The notes beneath the pieces were generated by a model that ran no database searches, was not told where the DNA came from, and saw nothing but the letters and a program-made list of their open reading frames with translations. Shown here in pieces: positions 9,118 to 54,915 of a stretch of DNA of 64,000 nt. Source of the stretch: Acidobacteriota bacterium. GTDB taxonomy: Bacteria > Acidobacteriota > Vicinamibacteria > Vicinamibacterales > CAVVIG01. Within the stretch, counting starts at the first letter, position 1. The number at the start of each line of letters is the position of its first letter. Where the stretch lies: the NCBI GenBank assembly GCA_003222395.1, contig QHWB01000031.1:188501-252500 (forward strand), written 5' to 3'. The position numbers were made by a program, and so were the translations under genes.

Positions 9118-10554
9118 TTACTTTGTCGATCCGGCGCGACGCCTCGCGCGACCCGCCGCCCGTTCGACCAACAGCCGTGCTGTGAGAAGCGGCGCGCGTG
9201 CCAGAATCCGGCGGCGCACGGCGCGATACGATCGCCGTCCGATCGCGAAGTCCAGGATGAGCCGGGTCAGGGCTCTTTCACGATTCGCGCCGTCGATCAC
9301 TCGCGCGATTCTGCGGCGATCGGCGAACAGATAGCGCTGAATCGAGACGGAATCCCGAAGTTCGCATCCAATTTCGTCATCGCAGGCCTTGCGATAGGCC
9401 GTTAGGAGCTTCGCCGGCTCGGCAGCCGTCGCGAGAACGGCGCGTGCCGCCAGCTCGCCCGAGACCATTGCGTAATAGATGCCTTCAGCGGTGAAGCCGT
9501 TGACAAAACCACCGGCATCGCCCGCGATCAGGACGCGGCCGCGTCCCGGGTGGCGCAGCGGCCCGCCCACGGGAATCAGGTACGGAGTGAAGTGTTCTCT
9601 TACCGAATCGCCGACGACGATGCCGCGTTCGCGAAGCCGGTCGACGAACCCGCGCTGCAGTTCGTAGGGCGCATCGGCGATCTCGCTCCGGAAATACGAG
9701 AGCACGTAACCGACGCCGATGTTCACATGGTCGCGCTTCGGGAAGATGTAGGCGTAGCCTTCTGCGGCGGGATTTGGGATTTGGGATTTGGGATTCGCAG
9801 AGCGTCCCGCGACTGCGGCAGGATTTGGGATTTGGGATTCGGGATTTGCAGAGCGTCCCGCGACTGCGGCAGGATTTGGGATTTGGGACTTGGGGTTCGC
9901 AGAGCATCCGGCGAATCCCGAATCCCGAGTCCCGAATCCCGGCTCGTATCCGTAAGAGACCCAGAGCGTCGAGGGATCGATGTCGCGCAGTTGCTCGCGC
10001 GGCGTTTCCTCCATCATGTCGAGCGCGATGGATGAAGCGGGCCATCCGGGATTCAGTCCAAGCCGCCGCGCGACGACGCTGTGCACGCCGTCGGCCGCGA
10101 TAACGATCGGCGCGGTGAACTGACGGCCGTCGCGCGCGACGAGAGCCACAGAGCGCGCATCCTGCCGCGCGTGCACGACGTCGACGCCGGGCACGAGCTC
10201 GGCTCCCTCCTCCACGGCCAGCGACACGAGGAGCGCATCGAACTCCACGCGGCGAATCATCAGCGCCGCCGGGCCGTCCGATTCGATCACTGTGGACGTT
10301 CCGGCCGGCCCTTCGAGATAGAGGCGGCTGATCTCGTGCGTCGAAATCCGACCGAGCTCGCGGGCGAGGTGAGGAAACCGCGGCAGCACGCGCATGCTGA
10401 TGCCGCCGCCGCACGGTTTGTTGCGAGGAAAGACCGACCGATCGAGAAGCTGGACGCGCACGCCGTTCGACGCCAGCGCCCACGCCGCCGTCGCTCCGGC
10501 CGGTCCGGCGCCGACCACGACGACCGCTTCGGCCGGCGAAGACCGGGCGATCAT
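9118..10554 (-). CDS. Geranylgeranyl reductase-family FAD oxidoreductase with in-frame repeat insertion
   Basis: A 478-residue flavoprotein of the geranylgeranyl reductase/digeranylgeranylglycerophospholipid reductase-like family. It has the FAD motif VVVVGAGPAGATAAW (about residues 11-25), the NKPCGGGISMRVLPRFP block (about 48-64), and the later GDAGGFVNGFTAEGI motif. The conserved stretch that should run from YGY to GYAYIFPKRDHVN is broken by about 60 residues (204-263) made of SANPKSQIPNPAA-like repeats. These are encoded by G-tract heptamers at 9766-9942 and keep the frame. The role is probably saturation of isoprenoid chains, substrate unknown. Whether the insertion is tolerated is an experimental question. 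Confidence 0.86.
   Translation of the reverse strand: MIARSSPAEAVVVVGAGPAGATAAWALASNGVRVQLLDRSVFPRNKPCGGGISMRVLPRFPHLARELGRISTHEISRLYLEGPAGTSTVIESDGPAALMIRRVEFDALLVSLAVEEGAELVPGVDVVHARQDARSVALVARDGRQFTAPIVIAADGVHSVVARRLGLNPGWPASSIALDMMEETPREQLRDIDPSTLWVSYGYEPGFGTRDSGFAGCSANPKSQIPNPAAVAGRSANPESQIPNPAAVAGRSANPKSQIPNPAAEGYAYIFPKRDHVNIGVGYVLSYFRSEIADAPYELQRGFVDRLRERGIVVGDSVREHFTPYLIPVGGPLRHPGRGRVLIAGDAGGFVNGFTAEGIYYAMVSGELAARAVLATAAEPAKLLTAYRKACDDEIGCELRDSVSIQRYLFADRRRIARVIDGANRERALTRLILDFAIGRRSYRAVRRRILARAPLLTARLLVERAAGRARRRAGSTK
9766..9942. repeat. G-tract heptamer repeats inserted in frame in a flavoprotein gene
   Basis: The plus strand carries GGATTTGGGATTTGGGATTC three times, separated by two nearly identical GCAGAGCGTCCCGCGACTGC spacers. 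It ends with the inverted form CGAATCCCGAATCCCGAGTC. Runs of G3 every 7 nt could fold as G-quadruplexes, and the opposed blocks could also pair. The array keeps the reading frame of the host gene. Confidence 0.85.
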
Positions 10555-13884: not shown

Positions 13885-14014
13885 CGCGAGGGCTGACGCG
13901 CGCGTGACGCGAGGGCTGACGCGAGCGTGGCGCGAGGGCTGACGCGCGCGTAGCGCGAGGCTTTCAGCCGAGCGGGGTCGCTCGCCGGCTCGCTCGCCGA
14001 AAGGCTCGCGCTAC
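13881..14014. repeat. Tandem 23-bp GTAG/GTGA/GTGG units ending in an inverted REP pair
   Basis: Three 23-bp units start at 13881, 13904 and 13927 and share the core GCGAGGGCTGACGCG, with headers GTAG, GTGA and GTGG. A fourth, at 13950, is the standard GTAGCGCGAGGCTTTCAGCC element. An inverted partner (AAAGGCTCGCGCTAC) closes the array at 14014. The first header gives the upstream gene its stop codon. No spacers of CRISPR type exist. Confidence 0.85.
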
Positions 14015-19536: not shown

Positions 19537-19587
19537 GCGACTGATCTTACAGGAGAGGCACGCGCACGCAGCGCGAGCCTTTCTTCC

Positions 19588-19675
19588 GTAGCGCGAGGCT
19601 TTCAGCCGTAGCGCGAGGCTTTCAGCCGAGCGTCAACGTCGCGACAACGACGCTCACCTGAAAGGCTCGCGCTAC
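19588..19675. repeat. GTAG REP-like cluster (two direct, one inverted)
   Basis: GTAGCGCGAGGCTTTCAGCC occurs at 19588 and 19608 in direct orientation, and its complement lies at 19651-19675. The cluster fills most of the 150-bp gap between the TonB receptor and PIG-L genes. The head-to-head pair can form a long hairpin (REPIN-like). A decayed further unit precedes 19588. Confidence 0.85.
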
Positions 19676-35434: not shown

Positions 35435-36652
35435 TCAGACGACGTAGCGCTCGCCGGTGGCGCGGGCCTTCGCGCGGGCGAAACGTTCGAGCGCGAACGG
35501 CGTGACGTCGAACGCCGGATCGCGGCCGGCGATCAGGTCGGCGACGATCCGGCCGGCGGCCGGCGAGTGCTGGAATCCGTGCCCGCTGAATCCGTTGACG
35601 AGGAACAATCCGCCGACCTCACGCGCCGGGCCGACGATCGGATTGCCGTCGGCCGTCATCTCGTAGAGTCCGGCCCACGCGTGCGACACCGACGCGTCGG
35701 CCAGCGCCGGCAGGCGCCGAACGGCCACGTCGATCACCTTCGGCAGAAAATCCCATTGCACGGTCATGTCGAACGTCGGCGTCTCGTCGGGATCGCCCAT
35801 GCCGAACAGGAGACCGGCGCCTTCGCGATGGAAGTAGAACGTGGTGTCGAAGTCGATGACCATGATGCGCGAATGGGGCCAGTCGGGTTCGGGTTTCCGG
35901 GTTCCGGGTTCGGGGTTGTTGGTTCTGGGTTCGGCGTTCTTGGGTTCCGGGTTCGAGGACGCGATGAAGATGTGGCGGCGAATGGGATCGACCGGGACGT
36001 CGAGCCCGGCCATCCGTCCGATCGCTCGCGCGTGTGGACCCGCGGCGTTGACGACGGCGCGTGTCTCGATCGTTCCCCGCGTTGTCTCGACGGCGGCGAT
36101 ACGTCCCGAGTCGACGCGCAGCGACACGACTTCGGTGTCGCGCTCGATTGCGGCGCCCGCCGCCTGCGCCGCCTTCGCGAACCCCATCGTGACGCCGTTC
36201 GGATCGGCGATGCCGTCGCGCGCGCAGAACGTGGCGGCGATCACGCCGGTTGCGTCGAGACCCGGCGCCAGCCGCAGTGCGTCTGCGGCGTCGAGCCACT
36301 CCACGTCGACGCCGAGACTGCGCTGCAGCGCCACGTTCCTCCGGAACACGTCGACGCTCGCCGGCGACGAGAGCAGGAAGAGATAGCCGTCCTGGTGAAA
36401 GTCGATGCTCTGACCGACCTCGTCGGCGAAGCGTTCCAGAAGGCGAATCGATTCGAGCGACAGCTTGATGTTCGCTTCGTTCGAGAACTGATGCCGCACG
36501 CCGCCGGCGTTGCGCCCTGTCGATCCCGTCGCGAGCAGCTTCTCGCGCTCGACGAGCACGACGTCCGTGATGCTCCGCCGCGTCAGATGATAGGCGACGC
36601 TCGCGCCCATACATCCGCCGCCGATGATGACGACGTCGGCGGTGCGCTTCAT
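35435..36652 (-). CDS. FAD-dependent oxidoreductase (sarcosine oxidase beta/DadA-like) with in-frame repeat insertion
   Basis: A 405-residue flavoprotein of the DAO/sarcosine oxidase beta group. The FAD motif VVIIGGGCMGASVAYHL is at about residues 7-23, followed by LLATGSTGRNAGGVRHQF, and it ends with DGNPIVGP and LFLVNGFSGHGFQHSPAAGRIVADLI. It oxidises a secondary amine or amino acid; the substrate is unknown. Between RRHIFI and RIMVIDFDTTFYF, where homologues have a short loop, lie about 25 residues (233-257; NPEPKNAEPRTNNPEPG and so on) encoded by G-rich heptamers at 35884-35965. The upstream gap carries a 40-bp-arm inverted repeat. Confidence 0.88.
   Translation of the reverse strand: MKRTADVVIIGGGCMGASVAYHLTRRSITDVVLVEREKLLATGSTGRNAGGVRHQFSNEANIKLSLESIRLLERFADEVGQSIDFHQDGYLFLLSSPASVDVFRRNVALQRSLGVDVEWLDAADALRLAPGLDATGVIAATFCARDGIADPNGVTMGFAKAAQAAGAAIERDTEVVSLRVDSGRIAAVETTRGTIETRAVVNAAGPHARAIGRMAGLDVPVDPIRRHIFIASSNPEPKNAEPRTNNPEPGTRKPEPDWPHSRIMVIDFDTTFYFHREGAGLLFGMGDPDETPTFDMTVQWDFLPKVIDVAVRRLPALADASVSHAWAGLYEMTADGNPIVGPAREVGGLFLVNGFSGHGFQHSPAAGRIVADLIAGRDPAFDVTPFALERFARAKARATGERYVV
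35884..35965 (+). repeat. GGGTTCG/GGGTTCC heptamer array inside a flavoprotein gene
   Basis: The plus strand reads as G3 tracts every 7 nt (GGGTTCGGGTTTCCGGGTTC and onward) up to about 35965. The host gene is on the minus strand and stays in frame. The array is of the same type as, but different in sequence from, the GGGATTT array at 9766-9942. Confidence 0.8.
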
Positions 36653-41714: not shown

Positions 41715-41777
41715 GCTCGCCTGAAAGGCTCGCGCTACGTGGATTGCGTTATGTAGCGCGAGACTTTCGGCCGAGCG
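41715..41777. repeat. GTAG REPIN-like inverted pair
   Basis: A minus-strand GTAGCGCGAGCCTTTCAGGC (ending at 41738) and a plus-strand GTAGCGCGAGACTTTCGGCC (from 41753) face each other across 14 bp. The pair lies between the GNAT gene and the decayed ADOP gene. Confidence 0.85.
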
Positions 41778-46198: not shown

Positions 46199-47152
46199 AT
46201 GCGAATCGCACGAATGACCTTTTGCGCGATGACGATGGTCGCGTTGTCGGTCGCAGCGGTGCACGCAGACGGCAAAGGCCACGGCAACAGCAGCCAGCCG
46301 GCGACGACCTCGCACGGCGGCAGCTCGCATACAACGGTCGCAGCGACCACGACGGCACACGGCTCGCAGGCGTCCGCGCCGACAACGACGACGAAGCACG
46401 GCGGCTCGACGCACGAGAGCAAGCACACGACGACTGCGGCAGCGCAGACGTCGACGCGCGCGCATCACGAGACCGAGCATCACGCGACCTCGACGAAGGG
46501 CAAGCCGCCGAAGTCGGCTTCCACGACCACCGCGGGCGGCACGACGACGGGTGGAACGGCGACCGGTGGCACGGCCACTGGCGGAGCCACGCCCGGTGGT
46601 ACAGCAACCGGCACGACTCAACTCAATCCGATTGCCCAGAAGCTTTCGTCCAAGCCGCACCTCGCCGCCAAAATCCAGAAGCTGCTCCCGGCCGGCATGA
46701 CGCTGAACCAGGCGTCGGCGGGCTTCAAGAATCAGGGTCAGTTCATCGCGGCGCTGCACGTCGCGAAGAACCTGAACATCCCGTTTGCGGATCTCAAGGC
46801 GCTCATGGTCGGCGCTCCGGCCGGCACCGGCACGACCGGGGGAACGACGACGGGTGGAACGACCACTGGCGGCACAACAAGCGGAGGCACGACGACCGGT
46901 GGAACGACGACCGGCGGAACGGCAACCGGCGGAACGGCAACCGGCGGAACGGCAACCGGTGGAACGACCACGACGACGACCAGCTCGACGATGAGCCTCG
47001 GTCAGGCGATTCACAAGCTGCAGCCGACGGCGAACTCGACGACCGAAGCCGAGCACGCGACGACGCAGGCGGTCACCGACCTGACGTCGACGGCCACCAC
47101 CAGCACGACGAGCACGAGCACGACGCCGCCGGCGAAGAAGCGCGGCAAATGA
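46199..47152 (+). CDS. Secreted Gly/Thr-repeat protein with a conserved central domain
   Basis: A 317-residue exported protein of unknown function. A signal peptide (about 1-23, ending VHADGKGHGNS) leads to a Ser/Thr/His-rich low-complexity segment (about 25-112). A first GTTTG-type pentapeptide array follows (114-138), then a compact helical domain of about 65 residues (LNPIAQKLSSKPHLAAKIQKLLPAG..LNIPFADLKALMVG). A second pentapeptide array (about 215-254) and a basic C-terminus (PPAKKRGK) close the protein. The RBS is GGGAGGAAA. The stop overlaps the next gene (ATGA). The mature N-terminus shares KGHGNS with that gene's product. The layout, a folded core between flexible arms, suggests a surface or matrix component, which is inference. 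Confidence 0.82.
   Translation: MRIARMTFCAMTMVALSVAAVHADGKGHGNSSQPATTSHGGSSHTTVAATTTAHGSQASAPTTTTKHGGSTHESKHTTTAAAQTSTRAHHETEHHATSTKGKPPKSASTTTAGGTTTGGTATGGTATGGATPGGTATGTTQLNPIAQKLSSKPHLAAKIQKLLPAGMTLNQASAGFKNQGQFIAALHVAKNLNIPFADLKALMVGAPAGTGTTGGTTTGGTTTGGTTSGGTTTGGTTTGGTATGGTATGGTATGGTTTTTTSSTMSLGQAIHKLQPTANSTTEAEHATTQAVTDLTSTATTSTTSTSTTPPAKKRGK
46538..46612 (+). repeat. 15-bp tandem repeats, first array (5 units)
   Basis: Five 15-bp units of the form GGMACGRCNACNGGY encode GTTTG/GTATG/GATPG pentapeptides. The units are diverged from one another, so this array is older than the second. Confidence 0.85.
46841..46960 (+). repeat. 15-bp tandem repeats, second array (8 units)
   Basis: Eight units encode GTTTG or GTATG pentapeptides. 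The units at 46916 and 46931 are identical (GGAACGGCAACCGGC) and the one at 46946 differs by one base, which points to recent slippage. Copy number should vary between strains without loss of frame. Confidence 0.9.
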
Positions 47153-48009
47153 ACGGGCAGACATTCGCGGCGGGCGTCATCGCGATGGCGCTCGCCGCTC
47201 CTGCTCTCGCAGAAAGCAACAAGATCAAAGGGCACGGCAACAGCGCGCCGCCGAGCCGGAATGAGCTCGCACCGGTCGCCGTTGTCACGCCCGTCGTGAG
47301 CGCTACGCCGCTCGCGTGGATCGACGATGCCACGCTGCTCGATCCGGGCACGATGGTGTTGTCGATGTCGGCGGTGCGGTGGCAGGGCGCCGGTCTCAGC
47401 GAAGTCGACTTTCCGATCAGCGACGTCGCGATCGGCCTCGCGCGGCGCGTGCAGCTGTCGGCGAGCGTGCCGCGGATCGTGGGCAGCGCCGATCCCGGCG
47501 GCGCGGCCGGAGGCGTCGGCACGAGCTTCTTCAGTGCGAAGGTCGCCGTCGCCAGCAACCGCGAACACACCGCGAAGCTCGCCGTCGCGCCGACCATGCA
47601 GCTGCTCGGCGAAGGCGTGGCTGCGGCGCTCGGCCCCAATCAGAGCCGCGTGCGCTGGGGATTGCCGGTAAGCGCCGAGGTCGATCGCGGTCCGCTGCGC
47701 GTGTACGGCGGCGGCGGATACTTCTCGCCCGGCTTGTGGTACACGGGCGCCGCCTTCGGACTGCAGACGAGCCCGAAGGTGACGATCAACGGCGGCTTCA
47801 GCCGGGCATGGCGCGGCGCGAACGGCCTCGACATCCCGCTGTCCGATCGCGATCGCAAGGAGATCTCCGGCGGCGCGGCCTACTCGCTCTCGCCGCATCT
47901 GACCGCGTTCGGATCGATCGGCACGACCGTGAGAACCTTCGACGACAACGGCGCCGGCACGACCTTGAGCGGCGGCGTGTCGTTCTGGTTCGCGACGGCT
48001 CACCGCTGA
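47149..48009 (+). CDS. Secreted or outer-membrane beta-barrel-like protein of unknown function
   Basis: A 286-residue exported protein: signal peptide 1-21 (MNGQTFAAGVIAMALAAPALA), mature N-terminus ESNKIKGHGNSAPPSRNELAP. The body is rich in alternating hydrophobic residues with Gly/aromatic turns (VRWQGAGLSEVDFPISDVAIGLARRVQLSASVPRIVG, GYFSPGLWYTGAAFGLQTSPKVTINGGFSRAW). It ends TTLSGGVSFWFATAHR, which resembles a small outer-membrane barrel with a penultimate aromatic strand. ATG 47149 overlaps the preceding stop (ATGA), so the two proteins are probably made in fixed ratio. No family is recognised. Confidence 0.8.
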   Translation: MNGQTFAAGVIAMALAAPALAESNKIKGHGNSAPPSRNELAPVAVVTPVVSATPLAWIDDATLLDPGTMVLSMSAVRWQGAGLSEVDFPISDVAIGLARRVQLSASVPRIVGSADPGGAAGGVGTSFFSAKVAVASNREHTAKLAVAPTMQLLGEGVAAALGPNQSRVRWGLPVSAEVDRGPLRVYGGGGYFSPGLWYTGAAFGLQTSPKVTINGGFSRAWRGANGLDIPLSDRDRKEISGGAAYSLSPHLTAFGSIGTTVRTFDDNGAGTTLSGGVSFWFATAHR

Positions 48010-53526: not shown

Positions 53527-54915
53527 ATGTCCGCCACACGCGTGCGCGCGAAGGTCCTCGCGTTTGCGTTCCTGCTCGCCGCCGTCACCTACCTCGATCG
53601 CATCTGCATCTCGGCGGCGGCGCCGTTCATCATGGACGATCTCCATCTTTCGGTCGTGCAGATGAGCGTCGTCTTCAGCGCGTTCACGCTCGCGTACTCG
53701 CTGTTCGAGATCCCGTCCGGATGGCTGGGCGACGTGCGCGGTCCGCGCCGGGTGCTGACGCGCATCGTCCTGTGGTGGTCGGCGTTCACGATGCTGACCG
53801 GCGCGGCGCGCGGATTCGCGCCGCTCGTCGCGATTCGGTTTCTGTTCGGCGCCGGCGAGGCCGGCGCATTCCCGAACATCGCGCGCAGCTTCTCGAAGTG
53901 GTTTCCCCCGCGCGAGCGCGGGCGCGCCAACGGCGTCATGTTCCTCGGATCGCGCATCGGCGGCATGCTGTCGGCGCCGATCGCGCTGCTGCTCGTCGCG
54001 CGATGGGGATGGCGGCCGAGCTTCGTCGCGTTCGGCGCGCTCGGCGTCGTGTGGGCAATCGCATGGTACGCGTGGTACCGCGATCGGCCCGAACAGCATC
54101 CGTCGGTGAGCGACGAAGAGATTGCGTTGATTCGCGGGGCTAAAGGCCCCGCGCCACAATCCACGGTTGTGGCGCCACGGTCCGCGGATGTGGGGCCAGA
54201 ACGTGCGGATGTGGAGCCACAACCTGCGGCTGTGGCGCGGCCCTTTAAGGGCCGCGATCTCTGGCGCGCACTGCTGCGAAGTCGAAACCTCTACGCCATC
54301 TGCGGGATGTACTTCGCGTTCGGGTACGGCTTGTACTTCTACTTCACGTGGCTGCCGACGTACCTGATCAAGGTGCTCGGCTTCTCGCTGCTCGGCGGCG
54401 GGCTGTTCGCCGCCTTGCCGTTCCTCCTCGCCGGCATCGCCGACGTCGCCGGCGGATGGCTGACGGACCGCTGGTCGCGCGCCCGCGGGCTGCGCGCCGG
54501 CCGCTGTCACCTCGGCTTCGTCGCGTTCTTCACGTGCGCGATGCTGGTGTTCGCGTCGACGCTGCCGGTGCCGGCCGTCGTGAAAGCGTCGCTGCTCGCG
54601 ATGGCGCTCGCCTCCGCCGACCTCGCCCTCGGCGCGTGCTGGGCGGTTCCAATCGACGTCGCGCCGGATCACGCCGGCGTCATCACCGGCTGCATGAACA
54701 CGCTCGGGAACCTCGGCGGGCTCGTCGGACCGCTCGTGCTCGGCTTCGCCGTCGATCGCTGGCAGTCGTGGACGTTTCCGTTCTACGTCACGGCGATCAT
54801 CTACGTAGCCGGCGCGCTTGCGTGGCTCGCGATCGATCCGACCCGGCCGATTCACGTCGTCGCCGAGGCGGCCGACGCGTCGCAAACGCGAACCACCGCC
54901 ACCGCGCCGCGGTAG
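53527..54915 (+). CDS. MFS transporter (ACS family) with in-frame REP pair
   Basis: A 462-residue 12-TM transporter of the hexuronate/glucarate/phthalate permease group. Marks are FAFLLAAVTYLDRICISAAAPFI in TM1, FEIPSGWLGDVRGPRRVL, and LFGAGEAGAFPNIARSFSKWFPPRERGRANGVMF. The cytosolic loop between TM6 and TM7 (about 190-250) is enlarged by about 40 residues (GAKGPAPQSTVVAPRSADVGPERADVEPQ and so on) encoded by an inverted REP pair at 54133-54256. TM7 resumes with NLYAICGMYFAFGYGLYFYFTWLPTYLIK. The likely job is import of the acid used by the divergent decarboxylase. Confidence 0.9.
   Translation: MSATRVRAKVLAFAFLLAAVTYLDRICISAAAPFIMDDLHLSVVQMSVVFSAFTLAYSLFEIPSGWLGDVRGPRRVLTRIVLWWSAFTMLTGAARGFAPLVAIRFLFGAGEAGAFPNIARSFSKWFPPRERGRANGVMFLGSRIGGMLSAPIALLLVARWGWRPSFVAFGALGVVWAIAWYAWYRDRPEQHPSVSDEEIALIRGAKGPAPQSTVVAPRSADVGPERADVEPQPAAVARPFKGRDLWRALLRSRNLYAICGMYFAFGYGLYFYFTWLPTYLIKVLGFSLLGGGLFAALPFLLAGIADVAGGWLTDRWSRARGLRAGRCHLGFVAFFTCAMLVFASTLPVPAVVKASLLAMALASADLALGACWAVPIDVAPDHAGVITGCMNTLGNLGGLVGPLVLGFAVDRWQSWTFPFYVTAIIYVAGALAWLAIDPTRPIHVVAEAADASQTRTTATAPR
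54133..54256. repeat. GTGG REPIN-like pair inside the MFS gene
   Basis: A minus-strand GTGGCGCGGGGCCTTTAGCC..CCGCG (54157-54133) faces a plus-strand GTGGCGCGGCCCTTTAAGGG..CCGCG (54232-54256). Between them are three units of about 21 bp with GCGGATGTGG / GCGGCTGTGG cores. Both hairpins and the centre keep the reading frame open. Confidence 0.88.

Follow-up and report, generated by a model that had tools for sequence, protein, structure and literature searches.

The window, a stretch of 64,000 nucleotides from a Vicinamibacterales member of the Acidobacteriota (assembly GCA_003222395.1, contig QHWB01000031.1, positions 188,501 to 252,500), carries on its minus strand a gene for a flavoprotein of the geranylgeranyl reductase family, and within this gene lies an array of heptamers. 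The features are listed below by their positions in the window.

9118 to 10554, minus strand: gene of a geranylgeranyl-reductase-family FAD protein of 478 amino acids, the carrier of the array (open reading frame; TIGR02032; FAD_binding_3)
9769 to 9796, plus strand: arm 1, an extra copy, (GGGATTT)3 GGGATTC (sequence; Tandem Repeats Finder)
9797 to 9819, plus strand: spacer copy 1, a duplicate of 9848 to 9870 (sequence; Tandem Repeats Finder)
9820 to 9847, plus strand: arm 2, four heptamers, an extra copy (sequence; Tandem Repeats Finder)
9848 to 9870, plus strand: spacer copy 2 (sequence; Tandem Repeats Finder)
9871 to 9898, plus strand: arm 3, four heptamers that make up the core palindrome together with the inverted arm (sequence; Tandem Repeats Finder; RNA folding)
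9899 to 9912, plus strand: core spacer of 14 nt, the hairpin loop (sequence; RNA folding)
9913 to 9940, plus strand: inverted arm, GAATCCC GAATCCC GAGTCCC GAATCCC (sequence; Tandem Repeats Finder)
35884 to 35955, strand not given: second array of a related, GGGTTC-like unit, in frame in gene 35435-36652 on the minus strand (Tandem Repeats Finder)

Direct reading of the sequence resolves the array at 9769 to 9940 into four blocks of exactly four heptamers. On the plus strand, three G-rich blocks follow one another with a period of 51 and are closed by one inverted block; read on the gene strand, a single palindrome (four heptamers, a 14-nt spacer, and four heptamers in inverted orientation) comes first, and the unit of spacer and arm is then repeated twice in tandem. 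Tandem Repeats Finder returned a 51-bp unit in 3.0 copies at 9762 to 9914 (score, 257), a copy number known from the assembly only, and further 7-bp arrays at 9769 to 9795 and 9912 to 9941. The reading frame of the host gene stays open across the array. The sequence-only reading, which had described a heptamer array with duplicated spacers, an inverted block, and an open frame, is thus borne out, and the array is confirmed as a real feature. A search of Rfam gave no match at the gathering thresholds. As for the second array, its gene resembles those of FAD-dependent oxidoreductases (named by eye from the translation), and the array encodes NPEPKNAEPRTNNPEPGTRKPEP in the protein.

The host protein matched TIGR02032 (GG-red-SF) with 189 bits (cutoff, 158.8; 1.5e-55), in line with the gene identity first proposed; it scored below the cutoffs for BchP/ChlP and MenJ and also matched the FAD_binding_3 domain. 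Its orthologues are mostly from Acidobacteriota MAGs. Comparison of 31 orthologous loci (L039 to L069, from 39 found; L063 ends before the loop) revealed a loop of variable length between LWVSYG and GYAYIFPK, with 5 residues in distant orthologues, 16 to 36 in close ones, and 63 here. Three close orthologues have heptamer palindromes in this loop with about four units per arm, of GCGGATT-like heptamers in L043 and L044 and of AAGTCTG heptamers in L039; in L040, L041, L042, L045, and L046, the loop is long but shows no clear array. Loci L044, L043, and L039 are the same DNA as genomes G024, G026, and G017, respectively, and the loop unit recurs elsewhere in its own genome: GCGGANT has 19 matches in G024 and 14 in G026 (control, 0), where GGGATT has 0, and GAAGTNN has 223 in G017 (control, 65), where GGGATT has only 3.

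In an AlphaFold2 model of the host protein (25 sequences; mean pLDDT, 84.5), residues 210 to 254 of the insert have a pLDDT below 50 and lie between strands 196 to 201 and 266 to 272. Since the insert is disordered and flanked by strands in this model, the enzyme core is predicted to be unbroken, with the loop lengthened instead; the site of the array is a length-tolerant loop between two conserved strands and is predicted to be disordered here. It had been claimed that the array splits a conserved segment. Conserved strands do lie on both sides, but the interrupted stretch itself is the length-variable loop, and the view that a conserved enzyme core is broken is not supported, given orthologous loops of 5 to 36 residues, of which three contain palindromes of other heptamers, and a predicted fold that is intact. 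The idea that all orthologues might contain an equivalent loop applies to the close ones, which have a long loop, but not to the distant ones with their 5 residues. The copy in the host enzyme is probably harmless. Cycles of GGGATTC and GAATCCC are free of stop codons in every frame, but those of AGCTGAT and GATTGCT do contain stops on one strand.

The source genome (G000), a 7.74-Mb assembly in 118 contigs, contains 241 matches to GGGATTNGGGATTN compared to 9 for the reversed control pattern, and the array is therefore not a product of chance; a similarity search found 87 places that resemble it. Most copies are convergent blocks of four units, and by the strict GGGATT rule exactly four units are present in 20 of 30 left arms and 22 of 30 right arms. 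The G-rich arm comes first in 30 of the 31 palindromic clusters, the remaining one being mixed and none reversed, and 12 of 42 clusters are single arms. Of 312 units, 292 have a T and 4 have an A at position 5, and the outer flanks of the elements retain a partial heptamer, GA.TC. The convergent four-unit architecture recurs in G014 and G142, the latter with two reversed pairs. Across the class, GGGATTNGGGATTN was found in 60 of 149 genomes, with counts from 364 (G142) down to 0 that vary also within one family. In G142 (loci L270 to L283), the inner ends of the GGGATT arms run on into GGAAG-like sequence, unlike in G000, which hints at a lineage-specific core.

Gene positions come from a gene caller of our own making, which predicted 1,103 genes. 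By these calls, 65 of 99 array clusters are intergenic (46 between tandem, 13 between convergent, and 6 between divergent genes), 30 are intragenic, and 4 lie at edges. GGGATT-type arrays, with AACCCCG arrays counted in, make up 19 of the 30 intragenic clusters, which fits their stop-free cycles. Edges that face a stop codon are at a median distance of about 7.5 nt from it, and 50 of 72 are within 15 nt, 10 of these slightly overlapping the stop; in the atpH-atpA gap (named by eye), the array sits between stop and start. RNA folding of eight elements with and without G3 runs gave minimum free energies of −39 to −74 kcal/mol, with z values of −3.8 to −12 for all eight.

GGGATTN is not the only heptamer of the source genome. 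Families of GAAGTNN, GATTGCN, GCTGGNN, AGCTGNN, AGGGCAN, and GCGGATT are found beside it, and GAAGTNN and GATTGCN, which have no G3 runs, nevertheless have the same period and inverted layout. A census covered 1,252,500 bases, made up of 852,500 bases (the window and contig stretches, among them 20 kb of contig 26 that had been selected because of the arrays there) and 400,000 bases chosen for GGGATT arrays. It gave 107 arrays of period 7 compared to 0 to 15 for periods 4 to 6 and 8 to 11; the corresponding numbers in the 852,500-base subset are 41 and 0 to 10. An inverted partner lies within 160 nt of 93 of 146 arrays, and polarity is nearly fixed, with G exceeding C in 49 of 50 left arms and C exceeding G in 42 of 43 right arms. 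Under a 5-of-7 match rule, by which a partial outer unit is counted and arrays below about 2.5 units are undetectable, the peak at four to five units holds 72 of 95 arrays with G3 or C3 runs and 28 of 50 without. In all seven families of the source genome with enough units, departures within arrays cluster in one to three of the seven columns (chi-square P values of 2e-36 to 0.02, somewhat favored by phase words that were picked after looking). GAAGTNN has 127 matches in this genome compared to 241 for GGGATT and is equally patchy across genomes; GAAGTNNGAAGTNNGAAGT was found in 48 of the 149 class genomes, a few of which, e.g., G010, G024, and G017, gave high control counts.

The G-first polarity holds in G000 and G014 and, counted by eye among the pairs listed, in 11 of 11 GAAGTNN pairs within 140 nt and 13 of 13 GCGGANT pairs within 230 nt. 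As a general rule it fails, twice in G142 and in the Luteitalea-like genomes (G029 and G041; L166 to L185), where G exceeds C in three left arms and C exceeds G in four. In 400 kb of the latter genomes, there are 48 arrays of period 7, with units such as CGAACGC, ACCTGAG, and ACCCGGT in up to 14 copies, and these arrays are mostly direct, an inverted partner being present for 15 of 62.

The unit at a given site differs between species, as seen when 20 stretches of DNA from 19 members of the family were set against a 20-kb block of the source genome. At the linker at 13.75 kb, 7 of the 15 genomes that cover it have arrays, of GGGATT (G000, G014, and G001), CAGCCAC (G026 and G002), or GGGCTGA or its complement (G005 and G024). 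The atpG-atpD gap (genes named by eye from their ends) holds arrays in 4 of 14 genomes, namely, GGGATT in G014 and G023, GAACTCA in G020, and GAGCCCT in G022, and none in G000. A third site, at 15.1 kb, is occupied in 4 of 13 genomes by GGGATT (G000), CAGCCCC (G014 and G024), or CCAGCCA (G026). G024 and G026 belong to one genus and are about 85% identical around the geranylgeranyl reductase gene, and their units differ at 13.75 kb as well as at 15.1 kb, the two sites at which each of them has an array. The shared occupancy of sites may reflect merely which gaps tolerate inserts. In one further intergenic gap (near 700 to 1140 of L039, L040, L042, L043, and L044), the kind of repeat varies among several species, with GTGTCAGAC palindromes in L039, CACAGAG-type repeats in L040, AATTCTG heptamers in L043, and GCCCTCA heptamers in L044.

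Short tandem heptamers in many copies are familiar from the STRR repeats of heterocystous cyanobacteria. Among G-rich heptamer repeats, the closest are GGGAATC or GGGANTN in Xanthomonas and GGGGAYT in Nostoc (Rehm et al. 2015, PMC4692102), and the kinship suggested by the sequence-only reading is supported by the architecture shared with them as described in the available text of that paper. Two Xanthomonas genomes have 70 and 75 convergent inverted pairs, and the repeats there have four units in the majority of cases and are likewise dispersed genome-wide, near the upstream open reading frame, and mostly intergenic near gene ends, as are 65 of the 99 clusters here. The convergent four-unit architecture is hence already published for GGGAATC, and nearly every feature is common to both. 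The differences are that our repeats come from another phylum, with several non-G3 units of the same period, some of them also inverted, in a single genome and different units at orthologous sites; that GGGATTN fits the GGGANTN form whereas GGGAATC itself is rare here; and that the intragenic share is 30 of 99 compared to 7 to 11% in Xanthomonas, figures that are not strictly comparable because callers and repeat sets differ. The TAACTGA repeats of Beggiatoaceae and cyanobacteria (MacGregor 2015, PMC4679880) are, by the part of the paper available, also heptamers in 2 to 6 copies, mostly intergenic at gene borders and with variant heptamers within sets, but they are direct with one inverted exception, lie upstream of starts, and have a single unit. 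REP/REPIN elements with their RAYTs resemble our elements as dispersed palindromes that form hairpins beside stop codons (PMC12306157, in its available part); unlike them, the heptamer elements have no GTAG/CGTC tag, and the RAYT-like gene of the source genome has GTAG repeats of its own. In the open literature, neither heptamer repeats of this type in Acidobacteriota nor non-G units arranged in this way were found to have been described, a weak negative with subscription journals mostly outside its range. What is new is that, in one and the same genome, non-G3 heptamers (GAAGTNN and GATTGCN) follow the period and the inverted arrangement of the G-rich ones.

Taken together, we consider it likely that the array is an intragenic copy of a dispersed, nonautonomous inverted heptamer repeat that is tolerated in an enzyme loop and has REP-like intergenic copies. 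This reading builds on the observed anatomy, dispersal, architecture, and differing units at orthologous sites and on the tolerance of the loop as it appears in the prediction. The element consists of two arms of four heptamers each, the first G-rich and the second inverted, on either side of a short spacer that varies, and it may have entered, or been inherited at, the length-tolerant loop between two beta strands of the flavoprotein, where it would be tolerated because arrays of GGGATTC and GAATCCC are stop free and the encoded peptide is predicted to be disordered. Two 51-bp tandem duplications would later have enlarged the array, if we infer the order of events correctly. Most copies are intergenic, typically with the stop-facing edge 7 to 8 nt from the stop, and are able to form a strong RNA hairpin; by analogy, they probably act, if at all, like the REPs of Escherichia coli by stop codons, on mRNA stability or ribosome exit, and not via G-quadruplexes. 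Dispersal of short palindromic blocks in trans appears to be the most likely mode of copying, and we give it somewhat less than an even chance. The single arms in the source genome, the mostly direct arrays of the Luteitalea-like genomes, and the reversed pairs of G142 speak against the main reading.

A copied palindrome should show a target-site duplication, a shared spacer, or likeness of its arms, unless it is old, and the absence of these counts against copying. Target-site duplications were not found among 30 elements (mean longest shared flank word, 3.57 compared to 3.60 shuffled), nor did the 30 spacers share more 8-mers than shuffled ones once heptamers were masked (5 compared to 3.5). 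An earlier excess without masking (25 shared 9-mers compared to 1.7 shuffled in the source genome) was inflated by heptamers inside the spacers. Within an element, the two arms resemble each other no more than do arms taken from different elements (0.870 compared to 0.881 shuffled in the source genome), their likeness in composition at the free position is not clear (P values of 0.73, 0.89, and 0.07 in G000, G014, and G142), and neither covariation nor compensatory change between arms was seen. No terminal motif common to the heptamer families was seen; TGA-containing words enriched outside the GGGATT arms are probably stop codons. A nonautonomous transposon (MITE or REPIN-like), in which the 28-bp arms are the terminal inverted repeats for a transposase in trans, would account for inverted arms, high copy number, patchy bursts, and five to six fixed positions per unit, as if recognized. 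Against it stand the missing target-site duplication, the unrelated spacers, the common single arms, and the many recognizers that many units would require. Furthermore, the one PF01797 match in the source genome, a RAYT-like Y1 transposase gene at L186, sits among GTAGCGCGAG GTAG-type repeats in a 3.3-kb locus without a heptamer array, and no GTAG/CGTC tag was found in the outer flanks of the heptamer elements. We hold such a transposon to be rather unlikely. A link to a reverse transcriptase was rejected as well: the loci of the three PF00078 matches in the source genome have no heptamer arrays. It would be quite improbable, on our estimate, that the arms are made de novo by an RNA- or repeat-templated polymerase that, where a chromosome has broken, extends the 3′ ends by about four heptamers before the ends are joined with a random spacer. 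The scar would be a convergent block pair, formally a head-to-head fusion of short telomere-like tracts. If true, this would account for the fixed polarity, the independent arms, the random spacers, the single arms, the lack of a target duplication, the GA.TC partial heptamer at the outer junction, and the genome-specific units.

Function offers further alternatives. The elements may be RNA hairpins selected by the host to tune translation or mRNA stability at stop codons, as E. coli REPs do, with the copy in the geranylgeranyl reductase gene as a by-product. Their closeness to stops, the array between atpH and atpA, and the strong folds with and without G3 runs are in favor of this, as is the report, in the available part of PMC12306157, that REPs less than 16 nt from a stop reduce translation. 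However, compensatory arm changes are absent, orthologues often have no element in the same gap, anything inserted into a short gap of an operon should likewise lie close to a stop, and 30 of the 99 clusters lie inside called genes; selection of this kind is possible but not what we expect. The sequence-only reading pointed to a G-quadruplex pattern. That four G3 runs per arm were chosen to form one G-quadruplex on DNA or RNA seems improbable to us. Four units are the minimum for a G-quadruplex, and (GGGAATC)4-type oligonucleotides fold into one in vitro according to the available text of PMC4692102, but units without G3 runs share the period, a similar mode of four to five units, and in several families the convergent pairs; G-poor GAAGTNN is as patchy and half as abundant in the source genome, and an ordinary strong RNA hairpin competes. 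Because the period and the inverted layout are also those of non-G3 heptamers within one genome, the potential to form G-quadruplexes is not what unites this repeat class. Plain local slippage at the host gene, unconnected with other copies, is very unlikely: the 51-bp unit does certainly stem from tandem duplication at the site, but the same heptamer occurs at many unrelated sites, four-unit blocks and fixed polarity are unexpected from slippage alone, and the loop unit of each heptamer-bearing relative is also present elsewhere in its genome. An assembly artefact is hardly credible. The assembly is a 118-contig draft from which a 51-bp triplication is unprovable, but the frame is open and like elements occur in dozens of other assemblies and in single-contig genomes, two of which (7.48 and 6.47 Mb) were in the comparison.

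A repeat class so far explained by its G runs thus comprises, in Vicinamibacterales, many heptamers, several of them without G runs, that have the same period, are often inverted, and are swapped between species at the same genomic sites. The question moves from G-quadruplexes to what copies or maintains 7-base units with five to six fixed and one to two free positions. By lengthening loops of ordinary enzymes in frame, heptamer repeats also supply bacterial proteins with disordered insertions.

The window contains other repeats. GTAG-type REP palindromes, GTAGCGCGAGNCTTTCAG, lie at 13950 to 14014, 19568 to 19675, and 41721 to 41770, with 9 matches in the window at up to three mismatches compared to 0.28 expected, and the same repeat surrounds the RAYT-like gene at L186. 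A 15-bp minisatellite of 8.9 copies (46835 to 46968) is inside the called gene 46222-48009, and a 21-bp direct repeat of 4.2 copies (54151 to 54238) is inside the called gene 53527-54915.
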